Shown piece by piece: positions 2,318 through 30,561 of a stretch of 35,353 nt of DNA (its first letter is position 1; each line of letters begins with the position of its first letter). This DNA comes from Candidatus Aenigmatarchaeota archaeon (GTDB lineage: Archaea > Aenigmatarchaeota > Aenigmatarchaeia > CG10238-14). The stretch spans positions 1-35,353 of the forward strand of contig JAFCCM010000013.1 of NCBI GenBank assembly GCA_017610225.1. Reading direction: 5' to 3'. The position numbers were made by a program, and so were the translations under genes. The notes under the pieces were generated by a model. The model searched no databases. It worked only from the letters and a program-made list of their open reading frames with translations, and had not been told where the DNA came from.

Positions 2318-3262
2318 CTATAATTTTTTTATGATAGAAAAAAGTTTTGTTTGAGGTCCTTTATATAACTCTATAAACATTGCAGTTACCTCTGAAGGAT
2401 AAAAAAGTTCCTGGCTGCAAAATGATAAATTATTTGTAACACCTAACCCAGCTTCATATCCTTTTGTTAATCCAGCATATATATGTTTAAATTTCTTCAA
2501 TTGATTAAATAAAGAATTTAAATCTGAAAAGTATAATTTTATAAAATGATAAAAATCTGATAATACAGAATTAAATTCATCTTCTGTTAAAGTAGATTTT
2601 TTTCTTAAATTTCTACTTATTAAATCTAAATATTTTTTTATTGTGCCTGACGAATGTTTTTTATATTCAAAATTTTTAAATAAAAATCTTACAAACATTT
2701 TAGTTTCATTATTAATATCAAAACCATGCGTTTTAAATATTTCTTCAAACATAATTTTATAATAACTAAGAAATTCACCCCAAAATATTCTAATAAAACT
2801 ATTTTTAAATTTATCAGATGCCATATGCATTAACTCATGCAACATTAAATTTGATAGCCACTTATCTTTAGCAAAACCCCATTTTATATTATTGTCCATT
2901 AATATAAAAATTTGTTTTGTTTTAGGCGAAAAAAATCCAGCTATACCTTGAGATGAATATCCAGCAAAAATTTTAAAGACAGCTAATCTAAAAATTCCTT
3001 TATTAACCCAGCATGGAACTATTTTTTCATTGTTTATTAATCTTTCAATATCTTTAGCAATTGGTTTTATTTTAGAAATATTATACATAGAATTTATATA
3101 TTTCTTTTTTAAACTTTTAGAAGAATATAAATTCATTCCTTGTAAAGATGCAACTTTTTTTGGAGCAATTGGAAGTGCAAAAAGTTCCTGCTGAATGGTT
3201 GCATTATACTCTTGTATGAATTGAGTATCAATATTTACGTCATCTAAAATAATTTTTATCAT
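2318..3262 (-). CDS. Putative zinc metallopeptidase (HELMH motif)
   Basis: The 314-residue protein has LMLHELMHMAS near residues 140-150, which matches the HExxH zinc-binding and catalytic motif of metallopeptidases. The sequence just before it is hydrophobic, as in the active-site helix of that class. No signal peptide or membrane segment is evident, so it should act in the cytoplasm or in the virion. It starts 3 bases after terL stops and ends 10 bases before the tape-measure-like gene, so all three are probably co-transcribed. By position it could be a head or tail maturation protease, or a virion-borne enzyme. The third zinc ligand cannot be assigned by eye, and the substrate is unknown. 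Confidence 0.55.
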   Translation of the reverse strand: MIKIILDDVNIDTQFIQEYNATIQQELFALPIAPKKVASLQGMNLYSSKSLKKKYINSMYNISKIKPIAKDIERLINNEKIVPCWVNKGIFRLAVFKIFAGYSSQGIAGFFSPKTKQIFILMDNNIKWGFAKDKWLSNLMLHELMHMASDKFKNSFIRIFWGEFLSYYKIMFEEIFKTHGFDINNETKMFVRFLFKNFEYKKHSSGTIKKYLDLISRNLRKKSTLTEDEFNSVLSDFYHFIKLYFSDLNSLFNQLKKFKHIYAGLTKGYEAGLGVTNNLSFCSQELFYPSEVTAMFIELYKGPQTKLFSIIKKL

Positions 3263-9594: not shown

Positions 9595-9960
9595 CTAGTA
9601 ACCTCCTTGTCCCATGATGACTTTAACCCCATCAGGTAATTTTAAATCATTTAATCCTTGGCGACATAATAAAGTTTCTAAAGGATCATCATAATCTTCG
9701 TCAGAACAATATAAAAAGTATACTATATTTCCTTCTTTAATTAATTTCTGGCATTCTATGTATTGTTCATCTTCTTCATCATCATATCTGTCTTCAACCC
9801 AGAATTTTTTCAACTCTTCTAATGTTAAAATTTTCTTTTCAATATACTTATTTAAGTCAACTTCAATTGTCATAGGAACTTTTAATAAACCTTCTTTAAA
9901 AGCTGTTATAATAAAAGAAGTGCTCGAACTATTAGTAATAAAATCAAGTTTTTTCTTCAT
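9595..9960 (-). CDS. Tagged small protein 1 (MKKKLDFITNSSSTSF N-terminus)
   Basis: The 121-residue acidic protein has unknown function. Residues 1-16 match the tag consensus MKxKxDF[IV]TNSSSx[SAG][FY] shared by six proteins here; the rest does not visibly resemble the others. The body is very acidic (runs of Asp/Glu at about 60-70) and ends in a Gly-rich GQGGY. There is no hydrophobic signal segment, so the tag is not a Sec signal. The stop is TAG followed at once by TGA. It is separated from the other tagged genes by a methyltransferase and a small membrane protein. Confidence 0.75.
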   Translation of the reverse strand: MKKKLDFITNSSSTSFIITAFKEGLLKVPMTIEVDLNKYIEKKILTLEELKKFWVEDRYDDEEDEQYIECQKLIKEGNIVYFLYCSDEDYDDPLETLLCRQGLNDLKLPDGVKVIMGQGGY

Positions 9961-10029
9961 AATAAATCCTTACAAATTCTAATATTATGTATATTAATAT
10001 ATATATAATATAACATTTTTTAAATGTAT
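9961..10029 (-). promoter_or_regulatory. AT-only spacer, possible promoter for the 9960 gene
   Basis: The 69-base spacer between the methyltransferase stop and the ribosome site of the first tagged gene is almost all A and T, including TATATTATATATATATTAAT on the minus strand. Such blocks could serve the phage RNA polymerase, but I see no matching element that proves it. Confidence 0.25.
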
Positions 10030-10635
10030 TTATTTTAATCTTTCAAGTATTGCTCGAATATAAATATCTCTTCCATCAAATGCATAATCTGAATCCATTG
10101 AAACAACTTTAAATCTTTCTTCCAATCCAAAGAAATATTTAAGTCTTTGCGGAGTCCATACAGAAGCATGAGGCATTGATGGTTCATTAAGAAGTTCATA
10201 AGTCAAAAGAGTATCATGTTTTTCCCATTCAGAATGTTCTATTGTTTCATCAATTTTTTCATTTAAAATTATATCAGCAAGAGTTTCATAATTAGGAACA
10301 ATTATATCAAGAGTTCCACCAACTTTCATTGCTGTTGATAATAGATAAATAAATCCTTGAACATCTGGTTTAGTTATATGTTCAAGAAATCTATAACATG
10401 ATATGAAATCAAATTGATATTTATAATTTCCCAAAAATTCAAATACATCAATATTGGTATATACAATTTCTTGACTTGGTAATTCTTTTGCCCATTTTTC
10501 ATGATTCTGTTCAATTGCTTCAGGTGGATTTACTAACCAATACATTTTATCCAATTGTACCAATAGATTTTTTTTATCTTCTTCATAATCAATTGGAAGT
10601 ATTTTACCTGCTGCTATATTCAAATAACTTTTCAT
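10030..10635 (-). CDS. Putative SAM-dependent methyltransferase (class I)
   Basis: The 201-residue protein has a motif I-like YLNIAAGKILPI at the N-terminus, FDFISCYRFLEHI (motif IV-like, with the LEH signature of small-molecule and lipid/glycan methyltransferases) near residues 76-88, and GGTLDIIVPNYETL near 106-119. These fit the Rossmann fold of a class I methyltransferase. The usual GxGxG is degraded to AAGK, so cofactor binding should be confirmed. The substrate is unknown. It sits between tagged protein genes, so a role in modifying their products is possible but unproven. Confidence 0.65.
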   Translation of the reverse strand: MKSYLNIAAGKILPIDYEEDKKNLLVQLDKMYWLVNPPEAIEQNHEKWAKELPSQEIVYTNIDVFEFLGNYKYQFDFISCYRFLEHITKPDVQGFIYLLSTAMKVGGTLDIIVPNYETLADIILNEKIDETIEHSEWEKHDTLLTYELLNEPSMPHASVWTPQRLKYFFGLEERFKVVSMDSDYAFDGRDIYIRAILERLK

Positions 10636-10638
10636 TTA

Positions 10639-10806
10639 TTAATCCTTTTTATTAAATTTATCATAAATTTCTTTTGGCCAAGATGCTGAATCTCTAATTA
10701 GTTTAATTGCTTTTTCTGCAACTTTACCAGTATCATCTTTAGCAATTTTTACTCCTAATCCTATAGTAAAATATATTGATACTAAGGTCACTAATCCTGT
10801 AAACAT
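10639..10806 (-). CDS. Small single-span membrane protein (55 residues)
   Basis: The ATG at 10806 is preceded by AGGAGA 7 bases upstream, and the frame closes with TAA at 10639. The N-terminal 20 residues (MFTGLVTLVSIYFTIGLGVK) are hydrophobic, and the remainder is charged. It sits snugly between the methyltransferase and tagged protein 2, leaving about 11 bases on the tagged-gene side and 3 on the other. Function unknown. Confidence 0.65.
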   Translation of the reverse strand: MFTGLVTLVSIYFTIGLGVKIAKDDTGKVAEKAIKLIRDSASWPKEIYDKFNKKD

Positions 10807-10817
10807 AACATTCTCCT

Positions 10818-11276
10818 TTAATTATCCATCCAACATTCTTCAATTCGAGAAAGTTCATCAGGATTAATATTCATACCTATTAATTTAAACTTATCACAAA
10901 TTTCTTGTTTAAATTCTTTTAATGTTTGATCTTCTTTTATACTAAAAGGAGATTTACCAATCATAACTACATCTTCATCAAGTATATTTTGGAGTTCCAA
11001 TCCATCTAAACAACCTTCAACTAACCATACAAAGTCATCATTAATAAATTCTTCATATTCTTTCTCTAATTTTTCTTTGCTATCTTTAGATGGTACTGTC
11101 ATAAAAGCACCTTGTCTCATAGCTTTTTTATGTTTCTTTTTATCTTCCTTTTGTTTATAAATTTTAAATATATTCTGCCCATACTTTTCTTTTAATGTAT
11201 CTGTATCAATACTGACCCCCCAAGCAACAAAACTACAACTGCTTGAGTTTGTAATAAAATCTAATTTTCTTTTCAT
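10818..11276 (-). CDS. Tagged small protein 2 (MKRKLDFITNSSSCSF N-terminus)
   Basis: The 152-residue protein carries the shared tag, with Cys at position 14, then a region unlike the other members: a Lys-rich patch (residues 40-55), an acidic central part, and a C-terminal stretch with EDVVMIGKSPFSIKED. No catalytic motif was recognised. It is co-directional and closely packed with its neighbours. It may be a tagged cargo, or it may be a nucleic-acid-binding or host-takeover factor. Confidence 0.75.
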   Translation of the reverse strand: MKRKLDFITNSSSCSFVAWGVSIDTDTLKEKYGQNIFKIYKQKEDKKKHKKAMRQGAFMTVPSKDSKEKLEKEYEEFINDDFVWLVEGCLDGLELQNILDEDVVMIGKSPFSIKEDQTLKEFKQEICDKFKLIGMNINPDELSRIEECWMDN

Positions 11277-11283
11277 AAATTAC

Positions 11284-11661
11284 CTATAATCTTATTTTTG
11301 ATTCAGCTAATTGCTTTTTACCATAATCACTAACATTAGCTGAATCTATTAATATTTCAATATAATCATTATCTAAAACAAAATCTGTTTCAAATAAGTG
11401 AGCAGTTATTTGTGGACAAAATATCATTCTACTTTTAATACCAGAAATCATAGCTGCATCTACACTTAATCCAACTGCTTTTACTGCTTCTTTTTTTGAA
11501 GTTTTAAAGAGTTTATTATTAACCATATTCATTGCTAAATCAGCACTTTCTCTTTCATTGGTTGTCCATCTATAAGTAAAATCTTTTTTAAGAACAGGTT
11601 TCATATCTTCACCTTGAGATAGCTCAACACCAAATAAAGTATAGTATTTAAACTCATCCAT
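11284..11661 (-). CDS. Unknown protein between tagged genes
   Basis: The 125-residue protein lacks the tag. It starts MDEFKYYTLFGVEL and contains an aromatic, mixed-charge N-terminal part and a C-terminal helix-rich part (ILIDSANVSDYGKKQL). No domain was recognised. It lies 7 bases downstream-side of tagged protein 2 and 30 bases from tagged protein 3, in the same operon-like run. Confidence 0.7.
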   Translation of the reverse strand: MDEFKYYTLFGVELSQGEDMKPVLKKDFTYRWTTNERESADLAMNMVNNKLFKTSKKEAVKAVGLSVDAAMISGIKSRMIFCPQITAHLFETDFVLDNDYIEILIDSANVSDYGKKQLAESKIRL

Positions 11662-11691
11662 TTATATGTTCCTCCATATCAAAATAAATTC

Positions 11692-12255
11692 TTAATGCTG
11701 GGTTTCAATCATAACCATAAAATCTTTTTGATTAAGATTGATACTTCTACCTGAATAGTCCATAGTCATTCCTATTCTACCACCTTGAATCATACCATCA
11801 TTGTCACCAAAAGAAACTTCAACATAATGATCAAGCTTATTATGTATTGCTTTCTTAATTTTAATGATTTTTTCTTTTGATTCTTTTATATATTCTTTTG
11901 TATACTCAGATGATTTCCAATGAATGTTTTCTTCCGAGTCTCCCTTTAATTCGTCTATAAGAGTTTTTTCAAATTCTTTTAATTCACCTTCATACCTTTC
12001 AAGAAGATCAGTTAGTTTGAGAGGTCCAGGTAAATACCATGGGTCTTCTCTAGTTGATGATAGAATGGGATCCAATTCTCTAATAATATCCCATACATCT
12101 ATATAATCTTCACCGCCACCATATTCATTATATAATTTAAATTTATCTTCATACTTAACCATCTGCCTAAAGAGATCAGTTCTTTTATCTCCTTTGAATA
12201 GAAAAACAAATCCTGTACTAGAACTATTAGTTACAAAATCGTGTTTAATTTTCAT
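11692..12255 (-). CDS. Tagged small protein 3 (MKIKHDFVTNSSSTGF N-terminus)
   Basis: The 187-residue protein is the longest of the six. After the tag it has an acidic, aromatic body with YGGGEDYIDVWDIIREL near residues 44-61 and a charged helical segment (about 95-140). The C-terminal part with GDNDGMIQGGRIGMTMDYSG is more compact. Its stop and the start of tagged protein 4 abut, with one base between, which suggests coupled translation. Function unknown. Confidence 0.75.
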   Translation of the reverse strand: MKIKHDFVTNSSSTGFVFLFKGDKRTDLFRQMVKYEDKFKLYNEYGGGEDYIDVWDIIRELDPILSSTREDPWYLPGPLKLTDLLERYEGELKEFEKTLIDELKGDSEENIHWKSSEYTKEYIKESKEKIIKIKKAIHNKLDHYVEVSFGDNDGMIQGGRIGMTMDYSGRSINLNQKDFMVMIETQH

Positions 12256-12630
12256 TTAACACATCCTTATGCTAGTAATAATTTTAATATTTTCCTTTTC
12301 AAACTCATTAAGAATTTTATCTTCAAACAACTCCTTAATAGAATTTTCAATAGGAAATTTATATGGATCAACCTGATCTATATCATGACTAATACCAATA
12401 TAAATATGATCTGATTTAAGACCCTGTTCTTCTAAATCTCCATATTGTATATCTAATACTTGATCTCCAATATCCTCCATTATTTCAATTGGACTATCAC
12501 CCACTTGGGTATTAATATTATATAGATTAGCAATTCTCATTGCATTTTCTACTGTCTGTTCTAATTTCCAACCAATAAATACAAATGCACATGAGCTGGA
12601 ATTAGTTACAAAATCTAATTTTCTTTTCAT
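12256..12630 (-). CDS. Tagged small protein 4 (MKRKLDFVTNSSSCAF N-terminus)
   Basis: The 124-residue acidic protein starts with the tag (Cys at position 14) and then has no recognised domain. It contains a pattern of Ile/Val strands and Asp/Glu turns (VDPYKFPIENSIKELF). It directly adjoins tagged protein 3 and lies about 10 bases from tagged protein 5. Confidence 0.75.
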   Translation of the reverse strand: MKRKLDFVTNSSSCAFVFIGWKLEQTVENAMRIANLYNINTQVGDSPIEIMEDIGDQVLDIQYGDLEEQGLKSDHIYIGISHDIDQVDPYKFPIENSIKELFEDKILNEFEKENIKIITSIRMC

Positions 12631-12639
12631 CTTCTCCTC

Positions 12640-12993
12640 CTAATAATCATCATCAACCTTAAATGAAGAAACCACAAACCCCCAATCAGGATCTTTAATA
12701 TATGAATTAGACATTAATTCTTTCATATAATCCGGAACATCTTCTTCTCCATTATGCATACTAACCCATTCATTTACTGTAAATAGATTTGGACCAACAT
12801 CCACTTGAACTTCATCAATATTAGTTCCATCCCAATAACGTAAACCATTTGGATTTCTTTCTTTATAACTAATCATGAATTTATTAAATAATTCAGTAAA
12901 CTCATCTAACCCCATAGTTCCATCATGTGGTCTTAATGTTAATATAAATGATGCTGATGAACTATTTGTTACAAAATCTCCCTTTACTTTCAT
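12640..12993 (-). CDS. Tagged small protein 5 (MKVKGDFVTNSSSASF N-terminus)
   Basis: The annotated start is ATG 12993: GAGG lies 9 bases upstream and the product then begins exactly with the family tag. An in-frame ATG at 13002 would abut the ribosome site. The 117-residue body is acidic with an N-terminal strand-rich region (FILTLRPHDGTMG) and an Asp-rich C-terminus. The stop is TAG. Its start lies inside the end of tagged protein 6 (32-base overlap), so translation is likely coupled. Confidence 0.75.
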   Translation of the reverse strand: MKVKGDFVTNSSSASFILTLRPHDGTMGLDEFTELFNKFMISYKERNPNGLRYWDGTNIDEVQVDVGPNLFTVNEWVSMHNGEEDVPDYMKELMSNSYIKDPDWGFVVSSFKVDDDY

Positions 12994-13375
12994 TATCATC
13001 ATCCTCTATTTTTTTAATTTTATTTTTGTATGATTGACAATTTATATTAATCATAAAACTGTCATCATTTTCTCCACCTTGTTCTATAAATTGTATCATA
13101 AAATCATTCTTACTATAAATATCTGAAAGTACTTCATATGGCTCAAATGGATATGCATTAGTTTCACCATGTTTAAGTAATGCAGAATGATTATATAATA
13201 TTTCATATATAAATTCATCTTTACTATATTCTTTAGCTATCCATTCTTTAGATAAGTGTTTATCTACCATATCTTGGTTTTCTTCAATAGCTTTTTTAAT
13301 ATCAAAATTATCTGGAATATAAACCAAATAACTACATGACGAACTATTTGTTATAAAATCTTTTTTAAGTTTCAT
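12962..13375 (-). CDS. Tagged small protein 6 (MKLKKDFITNSSSCSY N-terminus)
   Basis: The 137-residue acidic protein is the first tagged gene in transcription order. After the tag it has SYLVYIPDNFD, then charged helices and an acidic C-terminus. Its gene starts 2 bases after the C-terminal half of the split radical SAM enzyme stops, with AGGA upstream. This places the tag family immediately downstream of that enzyme in the same run. Confidence 0.75.
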   Translation of the reverse strand: MKLKKDFITNSSSCSYLVYIPDNFDIKKAIEENQDMVDKHLSKEWIAKEYSKDEFIYEILYNHSALLKHGETNAYPFEPYEVLSDIYSKNDFMIQFIEQGGENDDSFMININCQSYKNKIKKIEDDDNESKGRFCNK

Positions 13376-13376
13376 A

Positions 13377-14048
13377 TTAAAATCCTTGTACTGTATATGG
13401 ACAACAAGCTTTCTCTTTTGCTAAAATATATCTAAAATCATTAAAAGGTTTAGCTTTTTTCCACACTTCTTGAAGATTACCTTTTGAAATATCAGTACCA
13501 TATTTATCATGATTACCAAATGAACATGGAACTAATCTTTCATCAGGAGTTATATAACAAGACATTCTTCCACCCTCACAAGTATCAGCATACATTTCTT
13601 CTAATTTAGTTAACTCTCTTGTTTGAGCAACCTTATTAATTAAACAACTATCCATACCAATTTTAAATTTAGAATCAGGTCTCTTAATTAATTCAGCAAA
13701 GATTCTTAATTGATTTTTTGTTGGTGACCAATCTAAATCTTTTCCACGACCAGCAGGTTTAAATAATAGAAATACTACTGCATTTAATTTATTTAAATCA
13801 ACCATACCTTCCCAAATATCATCACCTTGTATTAACCTACATGCTAATTCAGCACTTAATTTAGAAAAGATAAAATGAATATTAGTTTTTATTTCTTTAC
13901 CCATTAGTCTGTTTAAAGCATTAAATGTAAATTTATTTTTAAAAATGGGTTTAGATTCATAATAGTTTTTATATTCATATTCATTAGTTTCTTTTTCATT
14001 TTCAGGAATTATTTCCCATTCTTCATTATTAATTTCAATAGTTTTCAT
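13377..14048 (-). CDS. Radical SAM enzyme, C-terminal piece with SPASM-like domain
   Basis: The 223-residue product continues a radical SAM fold: from about residue 39 it reads FTFNALNRLMGKEIKTNIHF, the typical later strand/helix of the barrel. Near residues 157-176 CEGGRMSCYITPDERLVPCS matches the SPASM pattern for an auxiliary iron-sulfur cluster, with further Cys at 135 and 215-216. The first ~35 residues look like added or junction sequence. The start codon overlaps the stop of the HNH gene (TAATG), so translation is probably re-initiated from it. The piece lacks its own SAM-binding CxxxCxxC, which is encoded by the N-terminal piece at 14773-15306. The two may assemble. Substrate unknown; SPASM enzymes often modify peptides. 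Confidence 0.7.
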   Translation of the reverse strand: MKTIEINNEEWEIIPENEKETNEYEYKNYYESKPIFKNKFTFNALNRLMGKEIKTNIHFIFSKLSAELACRLIQGDDIWEGMVDLNKLNAVVFLLFKPAGRGKDLDWSPTKNQLRIFAELIKRPDSKFKIGMDSCLINKVAQTRELTKLEEMYADTCEGGRMSCYITPDERLVPCSFGNHDKYGTDISKGNLQEVWKKAKPFNDFRYILAKEKACCPYTVQGF

Positions 14049-14767
14049 TATTTATTATCCTTTATAAATCTTTTTCTATAATTATCAATTTTACAATGAC
14101 ATTCTATACATAATGTAATACCAATATCTATTATATGTAAATCTAAATAAGTTTGAATAATTTCTTTAAAATTATCATTAGTCCATAAATCATAACTATC
14201 ATAATTTAGATTATTTTTAAAAACAGACTCATTAAATATTTCTCGATGTGGAGTTAAATGATGAACTTCTAATTTTTTATTAGAATTACATTTAGTACAT
14301 TTAAAACCATCTCTTTTTAATATTGGAAATTTCCAATGAGTATATAATAATCCAGATAATTGAAATTTAAATTCGTTCAGTGAAAGACCTCTTTCTTTAT
14401 TAATAGGTTTTCTATTTTTATAATTAGGCACACCTTTTTTAGATTTACTACATGAAATACCATTTTGTTTAACTCTTTCATCTATTTCTTTTGTTAAACC
14501 TTTATTCCAAGCAATATAATTATTATTTTGTTTAGTATGTTTCATAGTCAATGCATTTTGTTTAACTCTTTCATCTACTTCTTTATTCAAACCTTTATTC
14601 CAAGCAGATTTTCCTGTTGTTCTATTTTTAGGACATTGTTGATGATATTTACTACAACACCATTTACCATTTTTAAAAAGATAATGAGCAGGATTCCCAC
14701 AATAATAACATAAATTAGCTGTTTGTTCAATATAAATTCTATTTGTTAATACAGGATTTCTGCTCAT
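14048..14767 (-). CDS. HNH homing endonuclease inserted in a radical SAM gene
   Basis: The 239-residue protein has an N-terminal zinc-finger-like C-x2-C...C pattern (residues 19-45), two WNKGL...DERVKQN repeats like NUMOD3 DNA-binding motifs, and a C-terminal HNH domain: FKCTKCNSNKKLEVHHLTPH with a later LCIECHCKI providing the second Cys pair. It separates the two pieces of the radical SAM enzyme with only 5 bases on one side and a 3-base stop/start overlap (TAATG) on the other, so there is no room for a self-splicing intron. Phage HNH genes of this kind cut an unoccupied homologue and spread by repair. It resembles the HNH at 29779-30561 at its N-terminus. Confidence 0.85.
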   Translation of the reverse strand: MSRNPVLTNRIYIEQTANLCYYCGNPAHYLFKNGKWCCSKYHQQCPKNRTTGKSAWNKGLNKEVDERVKQNALTMKHTKQNNNYIAWNKGLTKEIDERVKQNGISCSKSKKGVPNYKNRKPINKERGLSLNEFKFQLSGLLYTHWKFPILKRDGFKCTKCNSNKKLEVHHLTPHREIFNESVFKNNLNYDSYDLWTNDNFKEIIQTYLDLHIIDIGITLCIECHCKIDNYRKRFIKDNK

Positions 14768-14772
14768 GATAA

Positions 14773-15306
14773 CTACCTTTTCTTTTTTCTAAGTTTTAAT
14801 TTTGTCTTTTGTTCTTGATAAGTTACTGATACAGCCACAGCTCCACAATATTTTTTTGATATTTCAATTGCTTCATCTGTTAATTTAATTCCACTAGTAG
14901 TATAGTTTGGAATAATATTATTATCAACAGCATATTTTAAGATTTCTTCAAAATACTCATGTTGATTTGGATCACCTCTTCCACCAAGAGCAATTTGATT
15001 AGAATAGTCTTTAGATTGGTCTACAATTAGTTTAAACCCTTCTAAGGACATGTTCTCTTCCCACTTATTACCTTGGTAACAAAATTTACAAGCGTTGTCA
15101 CAATGACCCATAATACCTACATCTAACATACTTGGATACTCAAGAGCAAATGGATCTTTATGTCCATTAATACCAGTTAAAACTTCTTCACCTGTTTTAG
15201 GATTAAATATAATTGCATACTTATCTGTTTCAACAAGTTTAACATTCTCAGGTCGATATTTAATAACATTTCCACAACTAGTTTTAATAACCTTTAATTT
15301 TTCCAT
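14773..15306 (-). CDS. Radical SAM enzyme, N-terminal piece
   Basis: The 177-residue product holds the cluster-binding motif C69xxxC73xxC76 in GHCDNACKFCYQGN, followed by the GGRGDPNQH SAM-contact motif near 103-111 and strands up to GAVAVSVTYQ, where the barrel is cut off. The last ~14 residues are Lys-rich and look like junction sequence. The remaining barrel strands and the SPASM domain are on the other side of the HNH gene at 13377-14048. A pre-existing single gene of about 400 codons was evidently interrupted. The gene starts inside the last codons of the membrane protein at 15294. It is not a QueE-type enzyme, whose motifs and size differ. Confidence 0.75.
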   Translation of the reverse strand: MEKLKVIKTSCGNVIKYRPENVKLVETDKYAIIFNPKTGEEVLTGINGHKDPFALEYPSMLDVGIMGHCDNACKFCYQGNKWEENMSLEGFKLIVDQSKDYSNQIALGGRGDPNQHEYFEEILKYAVDNNIIPNYTTSGIKLTDEAIEISKKYCGAVAVSVTYQEQKTKLKLRKKKR

Positions 15307-16340: not shown

Positions 16341-18521
16341 TTATCCCTTTACATTAATAAATGGTTTAACATAATCAACCACATCAATCACAATTCCTTC
16401 TTGAGCTTTAATAACTTTTTTAAGATTCTTATATGCTCCATGAGACTCATCTATTGTTGACTTATCAACTTTAGCTATAATTCCTTCCATCCAATGTTTA
16501 TGATCACTAAGTTTAATCATTTTCTTTGCTTTTGTTCTACTCATTTTACGACCTGCTCCATGAGAAGCTGAGCAAAGAAATTCTTCATTACCAAGACCTT
16601 TAGTAATATATACTCCTGACTTCATTGTTCCAGGAATTACACCAAGAGTTCCTTTCTCTGCTGGAGTTGCTCCTTTTCTATGAAGGACTCCATCATCTCT
16701 AACAATTGCATGATTATGATTTTCATTAATAACACCATGAAGAAAATCTTCAATCTGTAATCCTTTATAACCAAGAACTTTAAGAACATCTGTCATCATA
16801 AACATTCTATTATATAAAGCATAATTCAAAGCAAAGTCTAAATCTTCTTTATATGCTTTACCCATATCACTATCTAATCTAAAGAATCCATTAGGTAAAT
16901 CCTTATCTTCTATTTTAGATTTATTCATATAATATTGTGCAATTGAATGTCCTATATTTCTTGAACCAGAATGAATAGTAGCAACTATAAATCCATCCTC
17001 ATTCTCACCAAGTTCAATAAAATGATTGCCTGATCCTAAACTAGATAATTGTATATATAATTTGGAATTAACCTTTTTATTTAAATCTTTATTACCAGAT
17101 GCAGATTTAAATTCATCATATGGTAATGGGTATTTTCTACCAATACCTAATCCAACAGGTACTACTTTATATATTTCATTAAATATTTTTTCTCTTTTTC
17201 TCCGATTAAATGTATTTGCTGGAGTATCAGTTACTACACAACACATACCGCAATTATGCACAAATATTCCAGCTGAAATAGCAAAATTATGATATGTATT
17301 GACAGTTAAACAATATACATCTTCAGTATAATCAAGTTCTATTATTTCTTTTATTTTATGATTACTACTAAATCGATCATCTTTTATATATTCATCAAAA
17401 TTATTATAACCTAATTCTTTAATAATCTTTAAAGATTTATTATATAAAGGATAATTATAAAATTGTTTTCTAGTAATTTCATAATTTTCTTTTGTTATTT
17501 TTTTAAAATTTTTAATACATTTGTTTAAAAGTTTATTAATTCTACCTAACTTTTGTTGAATAATTAATTGTTTGTTTGAATTATTTTTAGAAAAGAATTT
17601 ACCTCCTCTAATACCATTTTGAGTAACAATTTCTTTAAAATATTCTGGATTATTACTCATATATTCTTTAATATTTTTAATTGCTATATTTTTTTTTATT
17701 GGTTTAAATTTTGGATCAAAGAAATATCCTCTTTCTAAAATAGTTTTTCTTTTCTTTTCCTTAAAATCATCAGTTGCAAAATAATTTCTATCAAGTCCAT
17801 GTAATTTACAATGTTCTATTTTATCAATAAACTGTAGATTATAAGGAAAGTTGTTTAATTTATTTTTATCTTTATGATGAATTTGTATACTATTTTTAAA
17901 ATTAGGAATATCCCCCAATAAACCAGATTCAGCAACTATCCATGAAGTTGGTCTAATTTTACTTGTTCCATGTACTCCTAGATATTCATAACCGTCTCTA
18001 TCTAAATATCTATGAAATGGAAATATAGAATTTTTATTATTTAAATCATAAACTTTAGTATAAGATATAGCATTAATATTTAATAATTCATGGTCTGGAG
18101 TGCATATAAATTCTTTATCATTATCTAATATTACTTTAACTAGTTTTGCATTTTTTCTTGTAAGTTTAACTTCATCAGCAATTCCTATTTTATGATCGCC
18201 ATTTTCATCAATAGAATATACAGGAAAGTTTTTAATTTTTTTATCATATAATTCTTTTAATAAATAGTCTTTTCCATCAAGTAATGGTATTTTTGTTGAT
18301 CCTATGAAGCAACCAATATCATAACCAACATACTCAGGAGATATAACATTATCAAGTAGTGCAACTCCGCCAATTGGTAATGTATAACCCATATGAACAT
18401 CAGGCATAATAGCTAAAACTTTTAGAAAATCCAATTCTAAGTTAGCATATATTTGTGTCTGAGCTGACTGCTCAATTTCATGTATTGGAATTAAACTTTT
18501 TAATTTTTCTAAACTAGCCAT
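16341..18521 (-). CDS. rtcB: RNA ligase RtcB, interrupted by an intein
   Basis: RtcB joins RNA 2',3'-cyclic phosphate or 3'-phosphate ends to 5'-OH ends using GTP and Mn2+. The reading frame is 726 residues; removing the intein (residues 71-423) leaves a 373-residue ligase of near-normal size. Extein motifs include MPDVHMGYTLPIGG near 39-52, GYDIG joined to CGMCC (the metal-binding Cys), GSGNHFIELGENEDG, HSGSRNIGHS and SASHGAGRKMSR containing the histidine that carries GMP. A T4 Pnk-like kinase is encoded at 26244-26696; together they could counter tRNA-cleaving antiphage nucleases, which is inference. The stop lies 4 bases before the 102-residue gene; the start overlaps the stop of the zinc-finger gene upstream. 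Confidence 0.95.
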   Translation of the reverse strand: MASLEKLKSLIPIHEIEQSAQTQIYANLELDFLKVLAIMPDVHMGYTLPIGGVALLDNVISPEYVGYDIGCFIGSTKIPLLDGKDYLLKELYDKKIKNFPVYSIDENGDHKIGIADEVKLTRKNAKLVKVILDNDKEFICTPDHELLNINAISYTKVYDLNNKNSIFPFHRYLDRDGYEYLGVHGTSKIRPTSWIVAESGLLGDIPNFKNSIQIHHKDKNKLNNFPYNLQFIDKIEHCKLHGLDRNYFATDDFKEKKRKTILERGYFFDPKFKPIKKNIAIKNIKEYMSNNPEYFKEIVTQNGIRGGKFFSKNNSNKQLIIQQKLGRINKLLNKCIKNFKKITKENYEITRKQFYNYPLYNKSLKIIKELGYNNFDEYIKDDRFSSNHKIKEIIELDYTEDVYCLTVNTYHNFAISAGIFVHNCGMCCVVTDTPANTFNRRKREKIFNEIYKVVPVGLGIGRKYPLPYDEFKSASGNKDLNKKVNSKLYIQLSSLGSGNHFIELGENEDGFIVATIHSGSRNIGHSIAQYYMNKSKIEDKDLPNGFFRLDSDMGKAYKEDLDFALNYALYNRMFMMTDVLKVLGYKGLQIEDFLHGVINENHNHAIVRDDGVLHRKGATPAEKGTLGVIPGTMKSGVYITKGLGNEEFLCSASHGAGRKMSRTKAKKMIKLSDHKHWMEGIIAKVDKSTIDESHGAYKNLKKVIKAQEGIVIDVVDYVKPFINVKG
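17253..18311 (-). mobile_element. 353-residue HNH intein in rtcB
   Basis: The intein starts with Cys (CFIGSTKIPLLDG) directly after GYDIG and ends FAISAGIFVHN before CGMCC, giving first-residue Cys, penultimate His, terminal Asn and +1 Cys, the classical splicing residues. An HNH-like block (IHHKDKNKLNNFPYN) sits in the middle, so the element is a homing type. TPDHELLNI near residues 138-146 of the unspliced product fits the block B His motif. The insertion hits the RtcB metal-binding cysteine codon. Confidence 0.95.
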
Positions 18522-29778: not shown

Positions 29779-30561
29779 TTATATTTTATATCGTTGATAT
29801 AAAATAGCTTTATACCAAGATTTGTGCCACATTCTTTCATAATTAGCTATTACATTACATGAATTACATAATGTAATTAGATTATTTCTTTCACAATTTT
29901 CTTTGTTATAATCAATATGATGTATAACAATTATATTACTTTTTTTATTACAACATGGATTTAAACAACTATAATTATCTCTAAACTTAATAGATTCTTT
30001 AAAATCCATATTTGACCATAATTCACAATAAGGTAAATTTTGTATTCCGCCTTTCCAATTTGGATTGCCAGACCCACTTAAATTAATTGATTGTTGGATA
30101 TATTGACATTCTGGACATTCAGCACCAGCTGTAAATATATCCCATCTCATATTAAAAACATGTCCAAATATACATTGAAGTTTAATTTTACCAATGCAAG
30201 GTGAATATTCTTTAGTAAAACATTTATAACCTCTTTTTTTAGAAAATTGTTTAACCTTTTCAATATTCCAGTAAGTTATATTATTACACTCAGGGCAACT
30301 CCCTCCTGTATTTAAATTATTATAATTAGTAATATAATTATGTCCATTTTTACATTTTAAAATTAATTTAGATAATTCATTTTTATATTTACCGCTAATC
30401 CATTCATAACCTTTTGATTCTAAAAAAGTTTTAACATCTATATCACTTCTTCTATGATGTTGATTAGGGCATTTTTGTCTATTATACTCACATGTCCATT
30501 TTGGGTTTCCTTTCCTGGGTGGATATTTAGCTTCTTTACCACACCCATACTCACATTTCAT
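29779..30561 (-). CDS. HNH homing endonuclease between rpoC and rpoB
   Basis: The 260-residue protein begins with a zinc-finger-like block (MKCEYGCGKEAKYPPR) sharing C..CG.xAxY...KWxC..xxCP with the HNH at 14048-14767. It then has two more Cys-pair zinc ribbons (CKNGHNY, CPEC repeats), the SGSGNPNWKGG motif common in HNH homing enzymes, and a C-terminal HNH domain (YSCLNPCCNKKS, IVIHHIDYNKENC, NLITLCNSC). It starts directly after the beta' stop and ends 18 bases before beta; both neighbours are complete, so it inserted between genes. Confidence 0.9.
   Translation of the reverse strand: MKCEYGCGKEAKYPPRKGNPKWTCEYNRQKCPNQHHRRSDIDVKTFLESKGYEWISGKYKNELSKLILKCKNGHNYITNYNNLNTGGSCPECNNITYWNIEKVKQFSKKRGYKCFTKEYSPCIGKIKLQCIFGHVFNMRWDIFTAGAECPECQYIQQSINLSGSGNPNWKGGIQNLPYCELWSNMDFKESIKFRDNYSCLNPCCNKKSNIIVIHHIDYNKENCERNNLITLCNSCNVIANYERMWHKSWYKAILYQRYKI

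Follow-up and report, generated by a model that had tools for sequence, protein, structure and literature searches.

The window analysed here, a single virus record of 35,353 bases (contig JAFCCM010000013.1), carries six minus-strand genes whose proteins all start with MKxKxDF[IV]TNSSSx[SAG][FY] and continue into six unrelated bodies. We refer to this shared N-terminus as the tag. The cluster is transcribed leftward, and immediately upstream of its first tagged gene lies a split radical SAM/SPASM gene (13377-15306). We propose that the shared N-terminus quite probably serves as a modular tag marking substrates for a radical SAM/SPASM enzyme dedicated to them, whose gene is in the same genome and often adjacent. 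Computation supports this in four ways: the tag is constrained at the protein level, occurs together with the enzyme, varies along with the enzyme subfamily and is fused to a sister enzyme.

Six tagged proteins and the adjoining enzyme gene

The tagged genes of the window are, in the direction of transcription:

12962..13375 (tag DNA 13328-13375), minus strand: tagged protein 1, MKLKKDFITNSSSCSY, 137 residues, body family 22
12640..12993 (tag DNA 12946-12993), minus strand: tagged protein 2, MKVKGDFVTNSSSASF, 117 residues, body family 4
12256..12630 (tag DNA 12583-12630), minus strand: tagged protein 3, MKRKLDFVTNSSSCAF, 124 residues, body family 30
11692..12255 (tag DNA 12208-12255), minus strand: tagged protein 4, MKIKHDFVTNSSSTGF, 187 residues, body family 11
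10818..11276 (tag DNA 11229-11276), minus strand: tagged protein 5, MKRKLDFITNSSSCSF, 152 residues, body family 1 (34 members)
9595..9960 (tag DNA 9913-9960), minus strand: tagged protein 6, MKKKLDFITNSSSTSF, 121 residues, body family 10

An earlier note on this DNA had described six open reading frames (ORFs) with a common start on bodies that diverge completely; all six are found on the minus strand as listed, and at the sequence level the bodies indeed form six separate BLAST families. The start of tagged protein 2 overlaps the end of tagged protein 1; its listed ORF extends to 13002, and the tag begins at a later ATG (12993). Using a degenerate DNA pattern for DF[IV]TNSSS, we obtained exactly six matches in the window and none in 100 dinucleotide-preserving shuffles, and a chance origin of the six tags was rejected on that basis. 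At the positions D, F, T, N, S, S and S, the six copies show 47 synonymous versus 0 non-synonymous differences over 105 codon pairs, and the tag serines are encoded by AGY as well as TCN codons. The synonymous nature of all core differences indicates that selection acts on the protein, and a nucleic-acid element was rejected as the explanation of the tag.

The enzyme gene upstream of tagged protein 1, which had no place in the earlier note's account, is in two pieces around an HNH-type ORF:

14773..15306, minus strand: radical SAM/SPASM enzyme, N-terminal part with CxxxCxxC, type A; Pfam Radical_SAM, E 5.5e-8
14048..14767, minus strand: HNH-type ORF interrupting the radical SAM gene; label read from the sequence by eye
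13377..14048, minus strand: radical SAM/SPASM enzyme, C-terminal part, SPASM-like short form; Pfam SPASM exactly at the cut-off

The N-terminal part matches positions 10-166 of phrog_7293 (E 2.3e-15) and is 75% identical over 166 residues to the intact gene of another viral locus, L208, while the C-terminal part matches positions 188-311 (E 1.5e-9) and is 71% identical over 189 residues to its counterpart in locus L207. In both L207 and L208 the radical SAM gene is uninterrupted and is followed by relatives of the window's tagged genes in the same order. We read the HNH-type ORF as a putative mobile element; an Rfam intron search at the interrupted gene returned nothing at E<=1.

Tagged proteins and enzymes across phages and bacteria

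Scanning viral contigs for the tag as a DNA pattern gave at least 120 loci on 113 contigs, and the strict tag is visible in the fetched stretch of 111 of these contigs. The loci analysed yielded at least 431 unique tagged proteins, whose ORFs are 46-1,073 residues long. Clustering of bodies of at least 30 residues by single-linkage BLAST at 1e-4 gave about 97 families, of which 57 have a single member; since this procedure can separate distantly related proteins, 97 may be an overcount. The bodies that the earlier note called acidic reflect a general trait, as 95% of 424 tagged bodies carry a net negative charge. It had also noted the lack of a hydrophobic stretch, which is true of the window's six proteins; overall, three of the 431 pass a hydropathy screen (L184, L201 and L008). 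Apart from these three, the tagged proteins do not show the hydrophobic stretch after the N-terminus that is typical of a Sec or lipoprotein signal. In L171, L184 and L201 the tag leads into an Ala/Gly-rich or hydrophobic segment, with a cysteine nearby in L201.

The conservation of the tag stands out against that of the bodies. An alignment of 81 tagged proteins of different families (78 of the 97 family representatives and three others) has no column with a majority residue after the tag. Pairs of proteins from one body family (498 pairs) are 86% identical in the tag versus 39% in the body, and tags from different families still show 77% identity; as the 431 proteins were chosen by their tag core, this high identity arises partly by construction. 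Figures free of such selection come from the homologues of one bacterial tagged protein and from the enzyme family with a fused tag described below. The bacterial homologues were found by sequence without any motif, and the tag is kept in 119 of the 120 listed out of 306, the sole tagless one being an 87-residue protein that lacks its N-terminus. Among these 119 (600 pairs) the tag is 98% and the body 51% identical.

We then asked the converse with an enzyme-first search, using an alignment (A1) of 19 viral enzymes, a search that is blind to the tag though all 19 enzymes come from tag-bearing loci. The samples comprise the 80 best of 201 loci in bacteria and the 80 best of 245 in viruses. Of these enzyme loci, 68/80 bacterial and 56/80 viral ones carry the strict tag, and a variant tag in seven further bacterial loci brings the bacterial count to 75/80. 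Matches to the tag core are N-terminal in 99 of 100 cases at the bacterial loci and in 135 of 135 at the viral loci, and five reversed, scrambled or altered motifs gave no match in either set. Of the 68 bacterial loci with the strict tag, 65 have the nearest tag and the enzyme on one strand, and in 60 the two are at most 300 nucleotides apart. Starting from the tag, the enzyme is found on 94 of the 113 viral contigs, including 27 of the 28 that are at least 100 kb long; on three of these long contigs, as well as on L055 (86 kb), the enzyme is a divergent one only (155-212 bits). Up to seven different tagged genes occur in one cluster (L163 and L042).

The association extends to whole genomes. 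Five bacterial genomes that hold the enzyme, scanned whole, have tag pattern matches at the enzyme locus only. Among 150 genomes of one family, the enzyme occurs in three (the seed, G172 and G144); the DF[VIM]TNSSS tag is present in the seed and in G172 and in none of the 147 genomes without the enzyme, and six other pattern matches in the 150 genomes encode different residues. The earlier note had mentioned similar N-termini in Firmicutes and large phages, and these are real. It had also asked if the tagged genes are constantly found next to the same enzymes, and the answer is mixed: a radical SAM/SPASM partner is frequent and not invariable.

Distance between tag and enzyme is illustrated by cultivated phages. 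Escherichia coli phage RB16 encodes the enzyme p156 and two tagged proteins, p106 and p111, whose genes lie ~20 kb from that of the enzyme. T4-like phages at first seemed to hold the enzyme but no tag, a reading that was rejected: RB16 has no tag within 5 kb of the enzyme, and its two tagged genes lie 20 kb off. In 50,697 phage records, relatives of p106 occur in 174, of p111 in 175 and the RB16-type enzyme in 174; these counts are nearly equal by genus and stem largely from one clade, the overlap being compared by counts only. In Vibrio phage D479 the enzyme is accompanied by five tagged ORFs. Coliphages RB16/RB43 thus offer a system in which the link between tag and enzyme could be tested at once in E. 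coli.

The enzymes have a radical SAM domain with CxxxCxxC or a variant of it, together with the cysteines of a SPASM auxiliary cluster. In A1, C67 and C74 are invariant, as are C259, C281, C299 and C340 of the SPASM region. Type A enzymes, to which that of the window belongs, have CxxxCxxC and a short SPASM region, whereas type B enzymes have a displaced middle cysteine and a full SPASM region. In the type B enzyme of L057 (1019-2098), C-x7-C-x6-C takes the place of CxxxCxxC, and other type B enzymes are likewise non-canonical. The model TIGR04085 is reached by the L057 enzyme and by the type D enzyme of L032. In a tree of 54 enzymes, types A, D and the family with a fused tag are each set apart by a branch with full support, and one clade (98/93) comprises type B and two unclassified rows; long branches meet in this tree, as a tool warning stated, and the RB16 and D479 rows are present twice under two labels.

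Tag position 4 follows this division. Counted by unique protein, it is Lys in 130/133 tags with type A and Arg in 162/162 with type B; by occurrence, the counts are 182/188 and 186/186, respectively. All these counts cover radical SAM frames of at least 300 residues, and those by unique protein cover proteins with a typed enzyme at the locus where they were first seen. Position 2 is Lys in 126/133 (type A) and 161/162 (type B), and the bodies of the two groups have similar Lys:Arg ratios (1361:671 versus 2463:1237), so base composition does not explain the split at position 4. In three body families that occur with both enzyme types, residue 4 tracks the enzyme rather than the body: the first has 40 Lys with type A and 9 Arg with type B, the second 2 Lys and 10 Arg, and the third 5 Lys and 1 Arg, with one Arg exception under type A in each of the first two. 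SNSSS tags accompany two more groups, with GFVSNSSSSSF in RB16 and D479 and DF[IV]SNSSST in L032 and L079.

The tag also occurs in cis, on an enzyme. Gp146c of Salmonella phage Arash, a radical SAM protein annotated as a 'methyltransferase', starts with MYLTQIRYGFATNSSSSHS. NSSS lies within the first 70 residues in all 121 proteins made up of gp146c and the 120 listed of its 726 homologues, and a narrower tag pattern flagged 91 of these 121; CxxxCxxC follows the tag, at residue 184-252. The homologues come from sources that include Methylobacterium, Thermoanaerobaculia and a Promethearchaeota metagenome-assembled genome. On viral contigs the enzyme motif is present in 16 of 18 cis-tag ORFs, and the other two are cut off by the end of the stretch. 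Comparison of the profiles of the trans family, in which tag and enzyme are separate, and the cis family gave a probability of 100 and E 6e-43 over 285 columns, on which ground we call them sister families. Of P0001 and its 120 relatives, 121 proteins altogether, 86 entered one of the comparisons. Residues N14, S15, S16, S17, H19 and S20 are invariant in 85 cis sequences, and the cis family has no invariant cysteine outside CxxxCxxC. In a predicted cis structure, the mean predicted local distance difference test (pLDDT) is 54 for residues 11-20 and 47 for residues 21-30. The cis tag is thus conserved yet weakly held by the fold, as might be expected of a substrate segment.

Proposed action of the enzyme and alternative readings

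The earlier note had taken the common leader on unrelated bodies for a recognition, targeting or processing tag. The sequence comparisons above support this and sharpen it to a tag that would be read, and probably altered, by a radical SAM enzyme. Binding of the tag by the enzyme is very probable. The enzyme would recognise the first ~16 residues, i.e. a basic residue 4, [DG]F[VI] and [TS]NSS[ST]xSF, and may hold them via the basic residue and the aromatic flanks so that N-S-S is presented to the radical SAM centre. It is also rather likely that the tag, not the body, receives the modification: the enzyme would alter one of the tag's own residues, probably one within N-S-S, without touching the unrelated folded bodies. 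We favour this site because no other feature is common to all substrates. Our guess at the chemistry is hydrogen abstraction from a Ser or the Asn. Oxidation of Ser, as in the anaerobic sulfatase-maturating enzyme (anSME), would be one example, which we hold as doubtful; the backbone might be changed instead, or Ser and Asn might be linked. A thioether within the tag is unlikely because the tag is without a conserved cysteine. Taken more widely, we lean slightly towards a general modification code, in which phages and gut bacteria place one N-terminal barcode on ~100 unrelated protein families and one radical SAM clade reads it and makes an undescribed change in its NSS core. Every enzyme subfamily would then be adapted to a particular version of this barcode, while the sister clade would bear the barcode itself.

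A different division of labour, in which the tag merely docks the enzyme and the body is modified, is known from the leaders of ribosomally synthesized and post-translationally modified peptides (RiPPs), and the solved structures nearest to the enzyme, the peptide maturases SuiB and SkfB, are of this kind; their proximity counts in favour of the substrate-tag proposal as well. We consider modification of the body unlikely here, given the ~97 body families, the lack of any majority column after the tag, and the position of the enzyme's own domains behind the tag in the cis family. The tag could instead be read by another factor for placement in the virion, the membrane or a phage compartment, with an indirect link to the enzyme. 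The earlier note had named targeting as an alternative, and L184 and L201, with a hydrophobic stretch directly after the tag, would suit it; but residue 4 tracks the enzyme subfamily within one body family, the tag is fused to a sister enzyme, and bacteria and phages use the same tag, all of which makes such a signal very improbable. The same low standing is given to an unmodified tag that enters the enzyme as a pseudosubstrate or adaptor to regulate it or recruit it to targets. The cis fusion would suit an auto-regulatory segment, but clusters hold up to seven tagged genes, which would be redundant as regulators.

We also considered whether the tag might be no more than the opening strand of a fold that the tagged proteins have in common, the outcome that the earlier note had named as its own refutation. 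In an AlphaFold2 model of the 10818-11276 protein, 117 of 152 residues have a pLDDT of at least 90, while residues 1-10 have a mean of 45. Among the tagged bodies of other loci are LRR_5 repeats, a PQQ-type propeller, and BRCT and HIRAN domains, so the tag cannot be put down to a single fold. In the model the end of the tag does continue, from residue 13, into the first strand (13-24). A common fold, or a nucleic-acid element in view of the purely synonymous differences in the core, is the least credible of the alternatives and can be set close to zero. A Foldseek search of a tagged body against PDB and BFVD found nothing at E<=0.001, a result that does not by itself indicate a new fold.

Several observations weigh against the substrate-tag proposal. 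The strand just mentioned begins within the tag, and NSSS is not clearly disordered in the same model (residues 11-20, mean pLDDT 76). The enzyme gene of the window is itself interrupted. Tags with Arg-4 accompany type A enzymes in 6/188 occurrences, or 3/133 unique proteins. No enzyme was found on 19 of the 113 tag contigs, one of them at least 100 kb long (L111), and one of the 94 with an enzyme, L085, is counted on the strength of 33 matched positions at the end of a contig (E 9.8e-6). Conversely, no tag, strict or variant, was found at 5/80 bacterial enzyme loci, and 24/80 viral enzyme loci had none even in a looser search. G144 of the Lachnospiraceae family (L283) has a partial enzyme, covering model positions 7-200, and no tag nearby.

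Of the contigs and loci just named, L111 (105 kb) has four SNSSS pattern matches. A phrog_7293 search of 18 tag records without a found enzyme gave 0/18, a zero that carries no weight because the control was likewise without a match, and the N-terminal part of the window's enzyme as a single query against viral contigs gave nothing useful. The 24 tagless viral records, up to 52 kb and probably fragments, were searched whole with the T-type pattern, which gave one match, in L239. There, right behind the enzyme (~3215-3260), is a degenerate tag without a proper open frame, possibly a remnant of a lost tagged gene. Seven inspected tagless viral loci share neighbours that look tail-like by eye, so these loci possibly represent a phage group that has lost or moved its tagged genes.

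Among the neighbours of the enzyme, no family occurs in more than ten of the 80 bacterial loci, an ABC-transporter-like one (a reading by eye) occurs in four, and the neighbour list of these loci includes no widespread protease or exporter, which is not proof of absence. At L127, L128 and L129, the enzyme and tag genes adjoin DrmB, UvrD/GajB-like, DruE-like and NERD-helicase genes. These three loci may possibly lie in defence islands; the DrmB, DruE-like and NERD-helicase neighbours give a hint of phage-host conflict and no evidence of a role in it.

Relation to known systems and other genes of the window

The closest parallel is with RiPP maturases and their precursors, such as SkfB/SkfA, SuiB/SuiA and PqqE/PqqA, which likewise are adjacent gene pairs with a radical SAM core. 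In RiPPs such as the prochlorosins, one enzyme serves several precursors with a common leader. Here too, a putative recognition sequence is conserved across different candidate substrates beside the enzyme, RB16 with its 20 kb being excepted. Unlike RiPP precursors, the substrates would be proteins of up to 1,073 residues from ~97 families without a common body motif. None of the NCBIfam maturase equivalogs listed for L107, L057, L032 (25 of its 36 families), P0032 and P0101 reached the cut-off, and only the generic SPASM model did. The anSME recognises CxPxR or SxPxR, motifs that the tag core [TS]NSS[ST]xSF cannot hold (the comparison being made with the tag); anSME serves one enzyme class, in contrast to an N-terminal NSSS tag with many unrelated targets. 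Radical SAM enzymes that alter whole proteins, such as QhpD, Mmp10 and the glycyl radical activases, act on one or few targets, whereas the proposed system would mark many unrelated proteins by one N-terminal tag.

The family phrog_7293, listed in PHROGs with no function given and with nothing on the tag, covers enzymes of types A, B and D: besides the two halves from the window, it matches, over most of its length, L107 (positions 17-350 of 384, E 1.1e-32), L032 (E 7.7e-34) and L057 (E 1.2e-22). The titles and opening lines of abstracts of open-access literature contained no description of a tag-enzyme system. One recognition sequence with many cargoes is RiPP logic; we know of no earlier case of its use on unrelated proteins of phages and bacteria, in versions matched to the enzyme and in a cis form. 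If the proposal is right, one enzyme family marks many unrelated and mostly nameless proteins, which would account for the common start of unrelated ORFs in large phages and give a first biochemical handle on hundreds of 'hypothetical' phage and bacterial proteins. It would further point to novel radical chemistry on Ser or Asn, and to a transferable tag for the modification of chosen proteins.

Two more ORFs lie within the cluster of the window:

11284..11661, minus strand: untagged ORF, syntenic in L207 and L208; relatives in 4/80 viral radical SAM loci
10030..10635, minus strand: methyltransferase-like ORF; Pfam, NCBIfam and PHROGs matches below the curated cut-offs where these exist

The methyltransferase-like ORF is also syntenic, with 65.8% identity in L207 and 69.2% in L208. 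It was rejected as a core partner because relatives occur in just 5/80 viral radical SAM loci. Elsewhere in the window, genes named by eye as terminase-like, RNA polymerase beta and beta', RtcB and prohibitin-like suggest a large phage. The RtcB-like gene (16341-18521, 726 residues) looks intein-bearing, its L207 relative having 377 residues, and an HNH-like ORF (29779-30561) lies between the genes named as RNA polymerase beta and beta'. Outside the window, the type B radical SAM gene of L072 (3795-6131, 778 residues) has, by eye, an intein-like insert. Together with the interrupted gene of the window, we read this as a sign that mobile elements may have invaded this radical SAM gene family repeatedly.

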